Below, piece by piece: positions 22,835 through 30,941 of a stretch of 64,000 bases of DNA. The position numbers were made by a program, and so were the translations under genes. The notes below the pieces were generated by a model. The model did no database searches, was not told the origin of the DNA, and was given only the letters and a program-made list of their open reading frames with translations. How positions within the stretch are numbered: position 1 is the first letter of the stretch; each line of letters begins with the position of its first letter. The DNA is from Peteryoungia algae (GTDB taxonomy: Bacteria > Pseudomonadota > Alphaproteobacteria > Rhizobiales > Rhizobiaceae), in assembly GCF_030369675.1 (NCBI RefSeq), contig NZ_CP128477.1, positions 1,922,001-1,986,000 on the forward strand, read 5' to 3'.

Positions 22835-22858
22835 CATCGGATCATACACCGCATCATG

Positions 22859-22893
22859 GCGGCCCGGCGGCTTCAACCGTCCGGGCCGCTTGC
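22859..22893 (+). terminator. Probable terminator after manC
   Basis: The perfect 9-bp GC stem GCGGCCCGG (22859-22867) / CCGGGCCGC (22881-22889) with a 13-nt loop is followed by the weak T tract TTGCTTT. Confidence 0.6.
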
Positions 22894-22966
22894 TTTATGG
22901 CGCTGCATTGCACAAGATCGATGCAAGCCGGAAAAAGCGGCAGGGCGAACAGCGAAGTGGTACCGT

Positions 22967-25900
22967 ATGTCAATCAAGGCAAGCATCTATCATCTCACCC
23001 ACTACACCTATGACAACCCGGTCCAGCTCGGACCGCAGATCATCCGGCTGAAGCCTGCCGCCCATTCCCGGACCAAGGTTCTCTCGCATTCCTTGAAGGT
23101 CACGCCCGAGAACCACTTCGTCAACCTGCAGCAGGACCCCTACGGCAACTATCTCGCCCGCTTCGTCTTCCCGGACCCGGTCACCGAGTTCAAGATCGAA
23201 GTCGATCTGGTCGCCGACATGACGGTCTACAATCCCTTCGACTTCTTCACCGAGGAAATCGCGGTCAAATGGCCCTTCGACTACCCCGAAGACCTGCGCG
23301 ACGACCTGAAGATCTACATGACGCCGGAACCTTCGTCTCCAGCGCTGGATGTCTTCATGTCCACCGTCGACACGACGCCCGGCCAGGGCACGATCGACAT
23401 GGTGGTGGGGCTGAACGCCCGGCTGCAGCACGACGTGGGCTATGTGATCCGCATGGAGCCAGGCGTCCAGACGCCCGAGGAAACGCTCACCTCGGCGCGC
23501 GGCTCCTGCCGCGATTCAAGCTGGCTGCTCGTCCAGATCCTGCGCCGTCTCGGTTTTGCCGCCCGCTTCGTCTCCGGCTACCTCATCCAGCTCGCACCTG
23601 ATCTGAAGGCGCTTGATGGGCCATCCGGCACCGAGGTCGACTTCACCGACCTGCATGCCTGGGCGGAAGTTTACATCCCCGGCGCCGGCTGGATCGGCCT
23701 TGATCCGACCTCTGGCCTTTTGACGGGGGAAAGCCACATTCCGCTGGCTGCGACCCCGCATTTCAAGAACGCAGCACCGATCTCCGGCGGCTATGTCGGC
23801 CAGGCCAATACAGAATTCGCCTTCGACATGCAGGTGAAACGCGTCGCCGAACATCCGCGCATCACCAAGCCATTCTCCGACGACAGCTGGGACGCCCTGA
23901 ACGCGCTCGGCCTCAAGGTCGACGGTGACCTGAAGGCACATGATGTGCGCCTCACCATGGGCGGCGAGCCGACATTCGTATCGATCGACGACTTCCAGTC
24001 CGCCGAATGGAACACCGATGCCGTCGGTCCGACCAAGCGCGACCTCGCCGATCAGCTCATCCGCCGGCTGCGCGAAAAATTCGCCCCCGGGGGCTTCCTG
24101 CATTATGGCCAGGGCAAATGGTATCCGGGCGAAAGCCTGCCGCGCTGGACCTTCTCGCTCTACTGGCGGAAGGACGGCAAGCCGATCTGGCATGATCCGG
24201 CGCTGATCGCCGCCGAAGAGAAGGATACGGGCGTCACCCACGAACAGGCGCAAGCCCTGATGGCGGGGATCGCAGCGGAGCTCGAGATCGAAACCGAGAT
24301 GATCATCCCGGCCTTCGAGGATCCGGCCGAATGGATCATCAAGGAGGGCAGCCTGCCCGAGAATGTCGATCCCTCGAATTCCAAGCTCGAAAGCCCGGAA
24401 GAGCGCGCCCGCATCGCCAAGGTCTTCGAGCGCGGCCTGACGAACCCGACCGGCTACATCCTGCCGGTCCAGGCCTGGAATGCCAAGGCTGCTGGCCGAC
24501 GCTGGGTCAGCGAGAAATGGCGCACGCGCCGCGGCAAGATCTTCCTCATCCCGGGAGACAGCCCGATCGGCTTTCGAATGCCGCTCGGGACGCTGCCCTA
24601 TGTGCCGCCTTCGGAGTATCCCTACATCCACACCACCGATCCCTCGGTCCTGCGCACGCCCCTGCCGGATTTCGCCCCGCGCGATTTCGGCCCGGTTGTG
24701 CGCGAAGGGCGCGCCATGCCGGAAATCTCCCGCAGGACCGGCGAGCCCCAGCAGGACCGCAACGAACAGACCATCGCCGGATCGGTCGAGGACATCAGAG
24801 GGGCAGTGCGCACCGCGATGAGCGTCGAGGCTCGCGATGGGCGCCTCTGCGTGTTTATGCCACCCGTCGAAGAAGTCGAGGACTATCTCGAATTGGTGGC
24901 AGCAGCCGAAACGGCTGCCCGCGGTCTTGGCCTGCCCGTTCACATCGAAGGTTACGCCCCCCCGCAGGACGAGCGCATCAACGTCATCCGCGTGGCACCC
25001 GACCCGGGTGTCATCGAGGTGAACATTCACCCGGCCGAAAGCTGGCAGGACTGTGTGGCGACGACCAACACAATCTATGAAGAGGCACGCCAGACCCGTC
25101 TCGGCGCCGACAAGTTCATGATCGACGGCCGCCACACCGGAACGGGCGGTGGCAACCATGTCGTGGTCGGCGGCGCCAATCCCGCCGACAGCCCCTTCCT
25201 GCGCCGTCCCGACCTGCTCAAGAGCCTGATCCTGCACTGGCAGCGTCACCCGGCCTTGTCCTACATGTTTTCCGGCATGTTCATCGGCCCGACCAGCCAG
25301 GCGCCGCGCTTCGATGAAGCCCGCCATGACAGCCTCTACGAGCTGGAAATCGCCATGGCCCAGGTGCCGATGCCGGCAAGCGGTGAGGAAGCCCCCCTGC
25401 CCTGGCTCGTCGATCGCCTGTTCCGGAACCTCTTGATCGATGTCACCGGCAACACCCACCGCTCGGAAATCTGCATCGACAAGCTGTTCTCGCCGGATGG
25501 CCCGACCGGTCGTCTCGGCCTCGTCGAGTTCCGAGGCTTCGAGATGCCGCCGAATGCGCGCATGTCGCTTGCCCAGCAATTGCTGGTCCGCGCCCTGATC
25601 GCCCGCTTCTGGAGAAATCCCATCGGTGGTCGTTTCGTCCGTTGGGGAACGAGCCTGCACGACCGCTTCATGCTGCCGCATTATCTCTGGCTGGACTTCC
25701 TCGAAGTCCTGGCGGACCTGCGCGAGAACGGTTTCGACTTCAAGCCGGAATGGTTTGCAGCCCAGCTCGAATTCCGCTTTCCCTTCGTCGGAGAAGTTAC
25801 CTACGAGGGATCGAAACTCGAGCTGCGCCAGGCGCTGGAACCCTGGCATGTCATGGGCGAGGAAGGCGCGCCCGGCGGCACGGTCCGTTACGTGGACTCG

Positions 25901-26326
25901 TCTGTCGAACGCCTGCAGGTGCAGCTGGAGACAGCCAATCCCGAACGCTTCGTCGTGGCCTGCAACGGGCGCCAGGTTCCGCTGCGCAAGTCTGACGTGA
26001 ATGGTGTGGCAGTCGGCGGCGTACGCTACAAGGCCTGGCAGCCGGCCTCCGGCCTGCATCCGGTTCTGCCCGTCAACACACCGCTAACATTCGACATCTA
26101 TGATACATGGTCTGCCCGGTCGATCGGGGGCTGCGTTTACCACGTCGCACACCCTGGAGGCCGGACCTATGACACTTTCCCTGTGAATGGGAATGAAGCG
26201 GAAGCCCGTCGGCTTGCACGTTTCGAGCCTTGGGGCCATACAGCCGGCTCCTATCCCCTATGGCCCGAAACCGTGTCGCCGGAGTTTCCACACACTTTGG
26301 ACCTGAGACGACCGCAAGGTATCTGA
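22967..26326 (+). CDS. Transglutaminase-like domain fused to DUF2126 (predicted amidoligase)
   Basis: This 1119-aa two-part protein begins with a bacterial transglutaminase N-domain (residues 1-90) and a transglutaminase core with the full triad: Cys181 in [10 protein letters not shown], His230 in TDLHAWAEV and Asp246 in GLDPTSG. From about residue 320 the DUF2126 region begins ([20 protein letters not shown]), continuing through RPWGGY-unlike, GS/GCS2-type-looking blocks such as [14 protein letters not shown] and [19 protein letters not shown]. Comparative genomics has linked this architecture with amide-bond synthesis and peptide processing; the product is unknown. ATG 22967 gives [15 protein letters not shown]. 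The next gene starts 4 nt after its stop. Confidence 0.88.
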
Positions 26327-26330
26327 TCTG

Positions 26331-28745
26331 ATGGCACAAAAGACGGCAGCGGAGCTTTCCCCGCCAGACCCGCCGAAAAGCGAGGCCCACACGGCCGGCT
26401 ATCGCGCGCTGGCGGGCGCTGCCGATGAGATGCTCGATACACAGGGCAATGTGCGGCCTGTCTGGCAGGCGCTGGTCTCGGCCATCGACACGATGCCGGA
26501 ACACGAACTGCACGAACGATTCGCCCGGGCCGATCGCTACCTGCGTGATGCCGGCGTCTTCTACCGCGCCTATGGTTCTGGTGGGTCGAGCGAGCGGGCC
26601 TGGCCCTTCTCCCATATCCCGGTGATAATCTCGGATGCCGAATGGCAGGCTCTGGGCGAAGGTCTGGTGCAGCGCGCGAACCTGCTGGAAGCCGTTGTCG
26701 CCGACATCTACTCCGAAAACAGGCTCGTGCAGGAAGGGTTCCTGCCGCCGCAGCTGATCGCCTCCAATCCCGAATTCCTTCGGCCGCTCGTTGGCATCAA
26801 ACCGGCCGGTGGCCACTACCTGCATTTCTGTTCGTTCGAGATCGGCCGTGGCCCTGACGGCAACTGGTGGGTTCTCGCCGACCGGACCCAGGCCCCGTCC
26901 GGGGCCGGCTTTGCGCTCGAAAACCGGGTCGCGACGGCACGCGCCTTCTCCGACATCTATGCCGAGACGCATGTTCATCGCCTTGCCTCCTTCTTCGGCG
27001 CCTTCCGCAAGGCGCTGCAGGCACGCACCCGCAACAGCGATGAACGTATCGCCGTGTTGTCGCCGGGCCCGGCCAACGAGACCTATTTCGAGCACGCCTA
27101 TATCGCCCGCTATCTCGGCATCATGCTGCTCGAAGGTGAGGATCTGACCGTCGTCAACGGCCGGGTGATGGTCCGAACCGTCGCCGGCCTCAAGCCCGTC
27201 AGCGTGTTATGGCGCCGCCTGGATGCCGCCTTCGCGGATCCGCTCGAACTCGATCAGAATTCCTATATCGGCACGCCCGGCATGGTGGAGGCCTTGCGCA
27301 ACGGCGCCGTCACCTTCGTCAACGCACTCGGCTCCGGCATTCTCGAAACTCGCGCGCTGCTTGCCTTCATGCCCACCCTCTCGCGCCATCTGCTCGGCGA
27401 AGAGCTGAAGCTTCCCTCGGTCGCCACATGGTGGTGTGGACAGAAGGCAGAACGCGAACACGTGGCAAACCATCTCGACCGCATGGTCATCGGTTCGGCC
27501 TTCTCCCGTCTGCCCTTCTTCGACGACGGCGGGCGATCCGTGATGGGATCGCGCTACAAGGACCCGCAGGGACGCACCACCGCCGAGTGGCTGGAAACGG
27601 AAGCCGGCAATCTTGTCGGCCAGGAAGTGGTCACCCTGTCGACGACACCGGCCATCGTCGATGGCAAGCTGACGCCGCGACCGATGTCGCTGCGCGTCTT
27701 CGCCGCCCGCACGAAAAATGGCTGGCAGATCATGCCGGGCGGCTTCGCGCGCATCGGCAGCGGATCCGATGTCTCGGCGATTGCCATGCAGTCCGGCGGC
27801 AATGCTGCCGATGTCTGGATTGTCTCCGACAAGCCGGTCGACCGAACCTCCCTGCTGCCGGACGAGGAAACGTTCACCCGCAATATGCCCGGCAGTCTGC
27901 CGAGCCGAGCTGCCGACAACCTCTTCTGGCTCGGCCGATACATCGAGCGCGGCGAAGGTGTCTTGCGCATCATGCGCGCCTGGCATGCGCGCTATGCCGA
28001 GAGCGCCAATCCGGATCAGCCGCTGCTCGCCTTTGTCAGCGAGTATCTCTCGAACATCGACGTCGACACCCAGTCGGGCGTGCCGGAAAGCCTGCTGCGC
28101 AACATCGACAGCGCTGTTTATTCCGCGAGCAACATCCGCGACCGCTTCTCACCGGATGGATGGCTGGCACTGAACGACCTGTCGAAGACCTCCAAGCGCT
28201 TCCACGAGAAGGTGAAGCCGGGTGACGACGCGGCGCATGCCATGACCATCCTCCTGCGCAAGCTTGCGGGCTTCGCCGGTCTGGTGCACGAAAACATGTA
28301 CCGTTTCACCGGCTGGCGCTTCCTGACGATCGGCCGTCTGCTGGAACGCTGCCTGCACATGACCCGCCTGCTTGGCCACATGACCGGTCCGGACGCTCCG
28401 GATGGCGCGCTCGACATGCTCCTGGAGATCGGCGACAACGTCATGACCCACCGTCGACGTTACAACGTCTCGACGGCACGCCTGACGGTGACCGACCTCC
28501 TCGCACTCGACCCTCTCAACCCGCGCTCGATCCTCTTCCAGCTCAACGAAATTCGCATCGAGGTCGAGCAACTGCCGAACGCCATGGTCAACGGCCAGAT
28601 GTCGAGCCTTTTCCGCGAGGCCATGCGTCTGCATTCGGGCCTGGCGGTCATGACGCCAGAGGGCATGTCGGCCGAGGTCTACACCAATCTGGAGCGGGAA
28701 CTGGAGAAGTTCTCCGACATCCTCGCCCAGACCTATCTGAGCTGA
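26331..28745 (+). CDS. Circularly permuted ATP-grasp protein fused to alpha-E domain
   Basis: This 804-aa fusion has residues ~60-480 forming a circularly permuted ATP-grasp (DUF404/DUF407 type) with the typical WWVLADRTQAPSGAGFALEN, SPGPANETYFEHAYIARYLG and LPSVATWWCGQ blocks. Residues ~520-800 form the alpha-helical alpha-E domain (DUF403), starting SRAADNLFWLGRYIERGE. ATP-grasp enzymes form carboxylate-amine bonds, and alpha-E is found only with these ligases. In many bacteria the two are separate genes. Flanked by two transglutaminase genes with gaps of 4 nt each, it is the centre of a three-gene operon. Substrate unknown. Confidence 0.9.
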   Translation: MAQKTAAELSPPDPPKSEAHTAGYRALAGAADEMLDTQGNVRPVWQALVSAIDTMPEHELHERFARADRYLRDAGVFYRAYGSGGSSERAWPFSHIPVIISDAEWQALGEGLVQRANLLEAVVADIYSENRLVQEGFLPPQLIASNPEFLRPLVGIKPAGGHYLHFCSFEIGRGPDGNWWVLADRTQAPSGAGFALENRVATARAFSDIYAETHVHRLASFFGAFRKALQARTRNSDERIAVLSPGPANETYFEHAYIARYLGIMLLEGEDLTVVNGRVMVRTVAGLKPVSVLWRRLDAAFADPLELDQNSYIGTPGMVEALRNGAVTFVNALGSGILETRALLAFMPTLSRHLLGEELKLPSVATWWCGQKAEREHVANHLDRMVIGSAFSRLPFFDDGGRSVMGSRYKDPQGRTTAEWLETEAGNLVGQEVVTLSTTPAIVDGKLTPRPMSLRVFAARTKNGWQIMPGGFARIGSGSDVSAIAMQSGGNAADVWIVSDKPVDRTSLLPDEETFTRNMPGSLPSRAADNLFWLGRYIERGEGVLRIMRAWHARYAESANPDQPLLAFVSEYLSNIDVDTQSGVPESLLRNIDSAVYSASNIRDRFSPDGWLALNDLSKTSKRFHEKVKPGDDAAHAMTILLRKLAGFAGLVHENMYRFTGWRFLTIGRLLERCLHMTRLLGHMTGPDAPDGALDMLLEIGDNVMTHRRRYNVSTARLTVTDLLALDPLNPRSILFQLNEIRIEVEQLPNAMVNGQMSSLFREAMRLHSGLAVMTPEGMSAEVYTNLERELEKFSDILAQTYLS

Positions 28746-28749
28746 GGCC

Positions 28750-29631
28750 ATGCTCTACGACCTCTCGCTCCATATCGGCTATCGCTACGAGGTCCCGGCC
28801 ACCGGGGCCCACCACATGCTGCGCCTGCTGCCGCTGTCTCTGCCGGATCGCCAGCGGCTCATCGCCGGTGCCATAAAGGTGACGCCGGAGCCCGACGAGA
28901 TCACGACATTCAACGACTTCTTCCGCCATCCCGCGAGCCACGCCATCCTGCGCGGACCCCATGAAAAGCTCGACATCCGCATGCAGGCCCGCGTCCTGGT
29001 TCAGCCCCAGCCGATGACCGCCGACTTCTCGCCGCTGCTCGACAGCCTTCCGCAGGAGATAGCCGAGACCTGGTCGCTGGACGCCGAATCGCCGCACCAT
29101 TTTCTCGGCACCAGCCCGCGCCTGCCCCGCGACAAGGCGATCTCGGCCTATGTGCAATCCATGCTGAAGCCAAGCATGACCGTGCGCCAGATCGCCGAGA
29201 CGCTCTGCAGCCGCATCCACAAGGACTTCAAATACGATGCCGAGGCGACCACGGTCGACACGACGCCGGCCGAGGCCTTCGCAAGCAAGCATGGCGTCTG
29301 CCAGGATTTTTCCCATGTGATGATCGTCGCCCTGCGCAGCCTGGGCATTCCCTCGGGCTATGTCAGCGGTTTCCTGCGGACCATTCCGCCTCCTGGCAAG
29401 GAGCGGCTGGAGGGTGCCGACGCCATGCATGCCTGGGTGAGGGTCTGGTGCGGCAAGCTGACCGGCTGGCTGGAACTCGACCCGACCAATGACATCGCCG
29501 CCGGAACGGACCATATCGTGGTTGGCTACGGGCGCGATTACGCCGATGTGGCACCCGTCATCGGCGTGTTGAAGAGCTATGGCAGTCATCAGACGGATCA
29601 GGCGGTGGATGTCATTCCTGTCCGGCAATAG
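28750..29631 (+). CDS. Transglutaminase-like cysteine peptidase
   Basis: This 293-aa stand-alone transglutaminase-fold protein has an N-terminal beta domain (residues 1-95) and a core with Cys184 in KHGVCQDFSH, His227 in DAMHAWVRV and Asp244 in LELDPTND. The triad is complete, so peptidase or amide-transfer activity is expected. No signal peptide is apparent, suggesting cytoplasmic action. It starts 4 nt after the ATP-grasp/alpha-E gene and ends the operon. A proteasome-like Anbu gene, often found in such clusters, is not adjacent. Confidence 0.92.
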   Translation: MLYDLSLHIGYRYEVPATGAHHMLRLLPLSLPDRQRLIAGAIKVTPEPDEITTFNDFFRHPASHAILRGPHEKLDIRMQARVLVQPQPMTADFSPLLDSLPQEIAETWSLDAESPHHFLGTSPRLPRDKAISAYVQSMLKPSMTVRQIAETLCSRIHKDFKYDAEATTVDTTPAEAFASKHGVCQDFSHVMIVALRSLGIPSGYVSGFLRTIPPPGKERLEGADAMHAWVRVWCGKLTGWLELDPTNDIAAGTDHIVVGYGRDYADVAPVIGVLKSYGSHQTDQAVDVIPVRQ

Positions 29632-29723: not shown

Positions 29724-30941
29724 ATGGACATGATGACGAAACCTGACAGACAGAAAAAATCGATCGTCTCCCGATTCTTGAGCGACCGGGCCGGCAATTT
29801 CGGCATTACGACCGCCATAATCATTCCGGTCGTCGCCGCGACCGCCGGGGTTGCGATGGACTACAACAGAATGGTCCAGGTGCGCGCCGCCCTGCAGGAC
29901 TCGGCCGATTCCGCCGTTCTCTCGGCAGCCAACGCGCTGGCCAAGAATGACAACCTGTCGGACGAGGCCGCTCTCGAACTGGCGCGCAAGTTCATGAAGG
30001 CCCAGTTCTACAATGTCGTTCCGGGCGCCAGCGGTGACAGCTCCGACATCCCCGCCGACGAGGACCCGCTTGCAGGCGCGGTCGGTAACGTCGAGCGAAA
30101 GTCCAGCTCATCCGGCAAGACTTTCGACGTGACCCTGTCGACATCCTACGTCATGCCGACCAATGGCTTGACCGGTCTTCTGGGCTGGAAGGAAGTGACA
30201 CTGGGGGTCACGGCCTCGGCCCAAGCCACCACCGAAAGCAAAAATGCCCTGTCGATGTATCTGGTGCTCGACCGATCCGGATCGATGGCCTGGGATACCA
30301 CGATGGTGAACGAGGCACAGCCGACCAAGACCGTTTATTACAGCTGCGGAAACAAGAAAACCTGCAGCTACCAGGCGACCAACTACGTCGTCAAAATCGA
30401 TGCGCTCAAACTGGCCGTTGCCAATCTGACGACGCAGTTGACCACGGCTGACCCCGAGAGCAAGTATGTTCGCACCGCGGCAGTCGCGTATGAGGCAAAG
30501 ATGTATACCCCTGCTTCATTCAATTGGGGCAGCGCGCATACATTGAGTTATGTTCAGGCGCTCGTAGCCAGCGGCGGAACGGACTCGTCCGATGCGATGG
30601 CCCGTGCCTATACCGACGTCATAAAGTCGTCCGAGGACACGGCGCATAAGAACAAGAATGGCCAGGTTCCAAGCAAGTTCATCGTCTTCATGACCGATGG
30701 CGACAACAACCAGTCGAGCGCCGACACGAAGACCAAGGCGACCTGCGAGAGCGCCAAGAAGGCCGGCGTTGAGATTTTCACCGTCGCCTTCATGGCCCCG
30801 AGCAAGGGTCAGGCGCTCCTCGAATACTGCGCGACAAGCACGTCGCACTACTACGACGCACAGGATGCTGCCGAGCTGGTCGCGGCTTTCAAGGAGATCG
30901 GCGACAAGGCGGTACAGGCCTCGACCCGCCTCACCAACTGA
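29724..30941 (+). CDS. TadG-like pseudopilus protein with von Willebrand factor A domain
   Basis: This 405-aa protein has an N-terminal TadE/TadG-type segment, SDRAGNFGITTAIIIPVVAA (single membrane helix, residues ~20-45), followed by the DYNRMVQVRAALQDSADSAVLS motif region. The second part is a VWA domain with the MIDAS motif DRSGSM (Asp183) and a later FMTDGDNN strand. Such proteins are exported and anchored at the envelope, and in tad loci they act in pilus assembly. No other tad gene is nearby, so this is an orphan copy. The start could be ATG 29724 or the ATGs 6-9 nt later; the ribosome site is weak. Confidence 0.88.
   Translation: MDMMTKPDRQKKSIVSRFLSDRAGNFGITTAIIIPVVAATAGVAMDYNRMVQVRAALQDSADSAVLSAANALAKNDNLSDEAALELARKFMKAQFYNVVPGASGDSSDIPADEDPLAGAVGNVERKSSSSGKTFDVTLSTSYVMPTNGLTGLLGWKEVTLGVTASAQATTESKNALSMYLVLDRSGSMAWDTTMVNEAQPTKTVYYSCGNKKTCSYQATNYVVKIDALKLAVANLTTQLTTADPESKYVRTAAVAYEAKMYTPASFNWGSAHTLSYVQALVASGGTDSSDAMARAYTDVIKSSEDTAHKNKNGQVPSKFIVFMTDGDNNQSSADTKTKATCESAKKAGVEIFTVAFMAPSKGQALLEYCATSTSHYYDAQDAAELVAAFKEIGDKAVQASTRLTN

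Follow-up and report, generated by a model that had tools for sequence, protein, structure and literature searches.

Peteryoungia algae carries two cassettes of the ATP-grasp/alpha-E/transglutaminase (TG) amide system, and the one described here, called cassette B, appears to be an accessory module of the other, called cassette A. The window, which is the whole stretch of DNA that was analysed, has 64,000 nucleotides (nt) and covers positions 1922001-1986000 of a 4.40-Mb single-contig genome (contig NZ_CP128477.1). Cassette B consists of three open reading frames (ORF1, ORF2 and ORF3), all on the plus strand, with intergenic gaps of exactly 4 nt and 4 nt (Table 1). Sister cassette A lies at 1.70 Mb, 243 kb from cassette B. 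Gene content, catalytic triads, residue loss, the predicted glutamine synthetase (GS)-like fold, co-occurrence, and the operator and sigma-54 motifs were all obtained by computation.

By Pfam, ORF1 contains Bact_transglu_N, Transglut_core and DUF2126 (1342 bits), ORF2 contains CP_ATPgrasp_2/1 (465 bits) and Alpha-E, and ORF3 contains Bact_transglu_N and Transglut_core. Adjacent genes for a circularly permuted (CP) ATP-grasp, an alpha-E and a TG protein, which mark the ATP-grasp/alpha-E/TG system, are present at this locus. A search of the three proteins against NCBIfam gave no match at E <= 1e-3. The three-gene cassette and its 4-nt spacing had been described in an earlier note on this DNA, and the ORF coordinates and Pfam matches agree with that description. 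The mechanically called frame of ORF1 opens at 22856, ahead of the promoter motif; the start used here is the ATG at 22967, which follows that motif and is conserved among relatives. By ORF2, the closest named relatives are Rhizobium rhizophilum (98% identity) and several at 96%, including Peteryoungia aggregata. The same trio in the same order was found in 80/80 Rhizobiaceae loci fetched with ORF2 as query, which indicates that the cassette is not a chance assembly.

Table 1. Features of cassette B in the window and of the sister cassette A (cassette A coordinates are those of the fetched stretch L004; aa, amino acids)
Feature	Coordinates	Strand	Basis
Promoter: -35-like CTTGCTTT (22889-22896), -10-like CAAGAT (22912-22917)	22889..22917	+	Conserved block; -35/-10 assignment inferred
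Putative operator TGCATTGCACAA of PhaR (AniA) type, lying between the -35- and -10-like elements	22904..22915	+	Consensus match
ORF1: TG-fold Cys enzyme + DUF2126 (GS-like amidoligase), 1119 aa	22967..26326	+	Pfam
ORF1 TG triad: C181 (23507-23509), H230 (23654-23656), D246 (23702-23704)	23507..23704	+	Alignment columns
DUF2126 domain, residues 279-1114, predicted GS-like fold	23801..26308	+	Pfam, structure prediction
ORF2: degenerate CP ATP-grasp (probable pseudo-ligase) + Alpha-E, 804 aa	26331..28745	+	Pfam; PDB 3N6X; ATP/Mg residue loss
ATP-grasp residues replaced in ORF2 (cassette A residue in brackets): A183 (E), R185 (N), G388 (K), S453 (D)	26877..27689	+	Residue counts
Alpha-E domain, residues 523-803, ER motifs at E539-R540 and E672	27897..28739	+	PF04168, 190.6 bits
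ORF3: second TG-fold Cys enzyme, 293 aa, triad C184/H227/D244	28750..29631	+	Pfam, PDB 6g49, 3isr
Cassette A ATP-grasp (intact ATP/Mg residues)	L004 5286-6746
Cassette A stand-alone alpha-E	L004 6748-7695
Cassette A TG	L004 7710-8531

Domains of the three proteins

The ATP-grasp part of ORF2 aligns over its full length with PDB entry 3N6X in a sequence search (E=3e-72), and its ATP-grasp fold is certain. In ATP-grasp enzymes, four positions (E, N, K and D) bind Mg and ATP. All 35 cassette A copies sampled keep these residues, namely Glu and Asn in LEDN, Lys in VVK and Asp in VDLR. Of the 27 cassette B copies sampled, none has the Glu, the Asn or the Asp (one Asp position being a gap), 23 lack the Lys and 4 keep it, and the Gly-rich loop is not conserved. 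ORF2 therefore lacks the intact Mg/ATP residues and Gly loop, whereas the cassette A protein of the same genome has them. The B-type set comprised the window, 18 of 23 far loci and 8 loci taken from the 80 of the Rhizobiaceae; its L190 row is truncated. The lost positions are taken to be ATP and Mg ligands on the basis of general knowledge of ATP-grasp enzymes and of their invariance in cassette A. Because all four are replaced here, and three of them in every cassette B copy sampled, ORF2 is probably a pseudo-ligase, as far as its residues indicate. RRxD, ENR, Gln and the Arg of DLR are retained in 25 to 27 of the 27 copies, which suggests that the fold and some of the pocket survive. For the Alpha-E domain, no fold was identified.

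In the proposal of the earlier note, the fused ATP-grasp acts as a ligase and, with DUF2126 and the two TG proteins, makes a small peptide or peptide tag and trims it. The certain fold speaks for this proposal, and release of phosphate from ATP is reported for the ATP-grasp encoded in the Yersinia bercovieri Anbu operon (PMC6376114). However, that activity belongs to an Anbu-operon (A-type) protein, and residues invariant in the 35 cassette A copies are lost from all 27 cassette B copies, which makes an active ORF2 ligase improbable. Loss of the ATP-binding residues, which the earlier note itself had named as grounds for giving up its proposal, is what the ATP-grasp domain displays. This result cautions against assigning ligase activity to fused ATP-grasp proteins on the family name alone.

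The rest of the proposed enzyme set, namely two amide hydrolases or transferases and an amidoligase-like DUF2126, has held up better. ORF1 and ORF3 both have the complete Cys-His-Asp triad of TG-like Cys enzymes, and the triad columns of ORF1 are nearly invariant in an alignment of 131 sequences. The TG region of ORF3 matches PDB entries 6g49 (E=5e-9) and 3isr (E=1.5e-6), and that of ORF1 matches the same entries weakly (E of 0.0022 and 0.058). By sequence, the TG domain of ORF1 and ORF3 are likely peptide-cutting enzymes, that is, amidases or acyl-transferases.

The DUF2126 model obtained by structure prediction, a check that the earlier note had suggested, resembles glutamine synthetases. 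Among the folds closest to it are GmaS and the GS homologue 4hpp (Foldseek, E above 1e-3), both of which act on amines. In a PDB sequence search at E <= 1, DUF2126 was unmatched, and the matches of ORF1 were confined to the TG part except for one chance row. E334, E684/N686, N730/H731, R832/E834 and E854/R856 are conserved in the alignment and are candidate metal and ATP ligands. On the predicted fold, DUF2126 is the likely live ligase of cassette B.

Cassette A, fusion and Anbu

The own genome has two Alpha-E matches and three Bact_transglu_N matches. A survey of 299 genomes of the phylum found alpha-E in 156 and DUF2126 in 84; alpha-E is present in 72 of the 215 that lack DUF2126. The bare presence of alpha-E in 84/84 DUF2126 genomes shows little because cassette B carries its own alpha-E, and stand-alone copies were therefore counted. 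Read by eye, with open frames below 700 aa taken as stand-alone, they occur in at least 80 of the 84 DUF2126 genomes, and in two more the listed match lies in a longer frame. Among the matches listed, alpha-E is within 15 kb of DUF2126 in 38 of 82 genomes, eight of which were mapped as A type; this count leaves aside G117 and G085, whose alpha-E is present in the genome table. Cassettes A and B are merged into one single-strand gene run in L195 (1812-11056) and L200 (4307-13701). Cassette B is probably an accessory module that goes with cassette A and rarely if ever occurs alone.

The B-type ATP-grasp and alpha-E are fused in one stop-free frame in 23/25 DUF2126 loci of other families, so the fusion does not distinguish this copy as the earlier note had supposed. 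The other two are L187, where the cluster is merged and includes A-type genes and an Anbu-like gene, and L201 (6709-9736), a divergent split copy in which TG (300 aa) and DUF2126 (713 aa) are separate genes. ATP-grasp and alpha-E were not found in the 17-kb stretch of L201.

Anbu has been described as co-operonic with ATP-grasp/alpha-E/TG genes (PMC6376114, PMC5666114), a frequent feature of the system that is not universal and is missing here. No Anbu adjoins cassette B in the window or cassette A in the L004 stretch. The earlier note had pointed out this absence and had advised a search of the rest of the genome. The single proteasome-family match there is HslV beside HslU, and an Anbu protein query, run without a positive control, found nothing. 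The absence does not set this copy apart, as the two Anbu-like genes seen among other loci (L183 and L187) sit with cassette A genes. Their position there and the published operons are what favour Anbu-linked protein tagging or turnover, as suggested for the Anbu operon. Neither the family nor the protein query gave an Anbu in the own genome, none stands beside either cassette, and this explanation is very improbable for the window. Overall, the observation in the earlier note was sound; its interpretation survives in the TG triads and the GS-like DUF2126 and fails for the ATP-grasp ligase and for fusion and Anbu as distinguishing marks. It did not include the sister cassette A with an intact ATP-grasp, nor a PhaR-type operator in the promoter.

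Several other observations concern the surroundings and spread of the system. Adjoining cassette A are a 158-aa protein whose C terminus, judged by eye, is J-like and contains HPD (L004 8633-9109), and a 1611-aa open frame of ALSTDQ-type repeats that continues past the fetched stretch (L004 10166-15001). A 90.7-kb plasmid of Enterobacter roggenkampii (NZ_CP116251.1, 18501-21827) has a full-length TG-DUF2126 match at 53% identity with an annotated alpha-E gene beneath it; therefore, the system can travel. Regions associated with nodule competitiveness in S. meliloti SM11 include the regulatory region of a COG2308 gene (CP ATP-grasp, of cassette A or B; PMC8407117).

Upstream regions of the two cassettes

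Listing the upstream regions of relatives brought out a conserved island, CTTGCWTT-N7-TGCATTGCACAA. The block CTTGCWTT-N7-YGCANYGCACA occurs within 160 nt of ORF1 in 75/80 relatives. Across 41 dereplicated segments anchored on this block of about 30 nt, identity was 0.27-0.46 beyond 10 nt upstream of it and 0.29-0.66 downstream. The element TGCATTGCACAA agrees at every position with TGCRNYGCASMA, the consensus site of PhaR, a repressor that senses polyhydroxybutyrate. This consensus was worked out by footprinting and sequence alignment in Bradyrhizobium diazoefficiens (PMC6201568), a member of a related family. The element also fits the core YGCRNYGCR of S. meliloti PhaR (PMC12542648). The strict 12-mer occupies this slot in 45/80 loci, and these 45 are among only 57 strict 12-mers overall in 1.13 Mb. 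At S. meliloti phaZ, the PhaR site lies just after the -35 element (PMC12542648), and the window operator resembles the PhaR regulon in both its sequence and this placement. PhaR may thus bind the promoter of cassette B at the predicted site.

The own genome encodes PhaR and has 84 strict PhaR matches compared with 28 for the reversed pattern. One of these matches precedes the phaR start by 88 nt, and three others make up two sites about 75-105 nt upstream of a Phasin_2 gene. Among 61 genera of the family, 32 have DUF2126; the exact block was found in four genera, always directly before DUF2126. In a shuffle test on the 28 further DUF2126 genera, from which L306 was excluded as already known to carry the block, strict PhaR sites were present in 5 (0.08 expected) and the core in 20 (6.8 expected, maximum 11). 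By eye, GGTGCASCGCAACATC is upstream in 6/6 loci of another genus of the family. The ppdK site of S. meliloti, which is much like GGTGCASCGCAACATC, was bound efficiently by PhaR (PMC12542648).

Five loci of another family of the order (L147, L148, L149, L212 and L213) have, with small variations, a distinct block CCCGTTGTTA-N-TGCTTGATC ... GTTCTGCT-AAAAAAGC upstream of TG-DUF2126. No strict PhaR site was found in these upstream regions.

Sigma-54 promoters were found before cassette A in other genomes. Sixty cassette A genomes were picked from the top of the alpha-E listing; related genomes are included, so the counts are not independent. For 59 of the 60, the region scanned ran from 250 nt before the gene to 30 nt inside it; the remaining upstream was only 25 nt long. 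A sigma-54 promoter with at most one mismatch was present in 17/59 (shuffles 0.31, maximum 2; antisense 0); allowing up to two mismatches raised the count to 27/59 (shuffles 2.5, maximum 7; antisense 0). Before cassette B, sites with at most one mismatch occur in 3/45 upstreams (shuffles 0.23; antisense 1), and in the own genome no sigma-54 -24/-12 site was found near 22967. A separate element, TGGCATAAGTCTTGCG, is identical in L124, L126, L127, L128 and L130, about 53 nt upstream of TG-DUF2126; it is a possible sigma-54 site with two mismatches.

Published expression data refer to the same gene families. The B. cenocepacia genes I35_5080-83 (DUF404/407, DUF403, TG and a large TG protein) are strongly NtrC-dependent (PMC5491218), and their large TG protein presumably holds DUF2126. 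The Anbu-cassette genes PP_2685 and PP_2688 are up under nitrogen limitation (PMC8050072). In marine metagenomes, the cassette domains are associated with urea metabolism (PMC3597751). The PhaR-type operator before cassette B and the sigma-54 promoters at cassette A elsewhere, both predicted motifs, point to carbon excess or nitrogen shortage as the probable signal for the system.

Proposed function and known systems

It can be hypothesized that cassette B serves as an accessory module of the known ATP-grasp/alpha-E/TG amide system, paired with cassette A and its live ATP-grasp, alpha-E and TG. DUF2126, as a GS-fold amide ligase, would form an amide using ATP, and the Cys-His-Asp TG domain in its own chain would hydrolyse or transfer that amide. 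With ligase and amidase in one chain, a single polypeptide could make and break an amide. ORF2 would bind the substrate or product of cassette A as a receptor, or would scaffold the complex, and ORF3 would be a second amidase that hydrolyses or transfers the amide. This ligase-plus-amidase reaction, its direction and the partner contacts are what we infer, and the substrate may be a small peptide or a gamma-glutamyl-type amide. When carbon exceeds nitrogen, polyhydroxybutyrate granules would titrate PhaR off, the promoter would be freed and cassette B would join cassette A. Titration of PhaR by these granules is a published model (PMC12542648). In other Proteobacteria, sigma-54/NtrC would give the same physiology. 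Taken whole, with a DUF2126 ligase, TG amidases, a pseudo-ligase ORF2 and PhaR control in an accessory cassette, the explanation has a chance just short of even.

Several points weigh against this hypothesis. Every Foldseek E-value for DUF2126 is above 1e-3. A rewired ORF2 active site is possible, since the Lys is kept in the four copies mentioned above and RRxD, ENR and Gln persist in most. The window site misses the AT-rich arms of the 21-nt S. meliloti motif at three positions, and the S. meliloti SMc03880 site, which has a similarly GC-rich left arm, bound PhaR weakly (PMC12542648). Within the family, only 4 of the 32 genera with DUF2126 have the exact promoter block, and 1 of the 28 further genera has the full S. 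meliloti motif (0.12 expected). In other families, a strict match was found in 1/36 unique loci, on the antisense strand. The cassette is not named among the PhaR targets in the available text of PMC6201568 or in Table 3 of PMC12542648, where the presence of cassette B in the strain is not settled. The upstream region of cassette A in the own genome has neither a strict PhaR site nor a sigma-54 site. The sigma-54 signal of cassette B is weak, with at most two mismatches in 11/45 upstreams (shuffles 1.8) and six in the antisense control.

The missing arms would also be explained if another regulator with a TGCA-type palindrome bound the motif, and short palindromes can be common to several regulators. 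The polyhydroxybutyrate link would then be wrong and the remainder would hold. The same consensus stands upstream of phaR and of the phasin gene in the own genome, and its exact form rests on footprints in the related family (PMC6201568); a regulator other than PhaR is unlikely, but should be kept in mind.

A second alternative is nitrogen scavenging, in which an amine would be attached by DUF2126 to a carrier acid and set free again by the TG amidases, as in the gamma-glutamylation of amines, feeding nitrogen into metabolism when it is short. GmaS and 4hpp among the nearest DUF2126 folds favour it, as does regulation by nitrogen shortage or carbon excess. However, no transporter or oxidase is present in the cassette or among the identified adjoining genes of the window (neighbours in relatives were not systematically annotated), and three separate cysteine enzymes and a pseudo-ligase exceed the needs of such a pathway. 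Scavenging is rather unlikely.

A more specific version of the accessory-module hypothesis is slightly less probable again. Here, the pseudo-ATP-grasp/alpha-E protein would sense or hold the product of the live cassette A ATP-grasp, and the GS-fold ligase/amidase, switched by PhaR, would load or unload nitrogen on it. The product would be a nitrogen-sparing reserve or carrier made during carbon storage.

The families of the ATP-grasp/alpha-E/TG(/Anbu) system and the general amide or peptide idea are known from Iyer et al. 2009, as quoted in PMC6376114 and PMC5666114. Cassette B shares the protein families and operon habit of that system, and the own cassette A is a plain member of it minus Anbu. 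Unlike that system, cassette B adds DUF2126, a second TG and a degenerate ATP-grasp, and it has a PhaR-type operator in part of the Rhizobiaceae. By analogy, E. coli Gss (glutathionylspermidine synthetase/amidase) also combines an amide ligase and an amidase in one chain, and its amidase is a cysteine amidase. In contrast to Gss, the cassette B ligase would be GS-fold and the hydrolase TG-fold; hhalign of the ATP-grasps against a single Gss sequence gave a probability of 0.1. DUF2126 resembles the GS-superfamily ligases (GS, GmaS, 1tt4 and 4hpp) in its predicted fold and conserved acidic, His and Arg motifs, and differs from them in its extra regions, its N-terminal TG fusion and its lack of a PDB sequence match.

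As far as the searched literature shows, the new features are the degenerate ligase, the association of cassette B with cassette A, the PhaR-type operator and the wide occurrence of sigma-54 promoters. The system is widespread, as the alpha-E counts in the phylum attest, yet the literature found gives it no product. A probable live ligase, paired cassettes and a probable expression condition narrow a vague metabolomics hunt to carbon excess and nitrogen limitation.

Downstream of cassette B, a TadE/G-like protein with a von Willebrand A domain (29724-30941) lies between the cassette and glgP and is present in 78/80 relatives. The glgP gene itself is near the cassette in 69/80.

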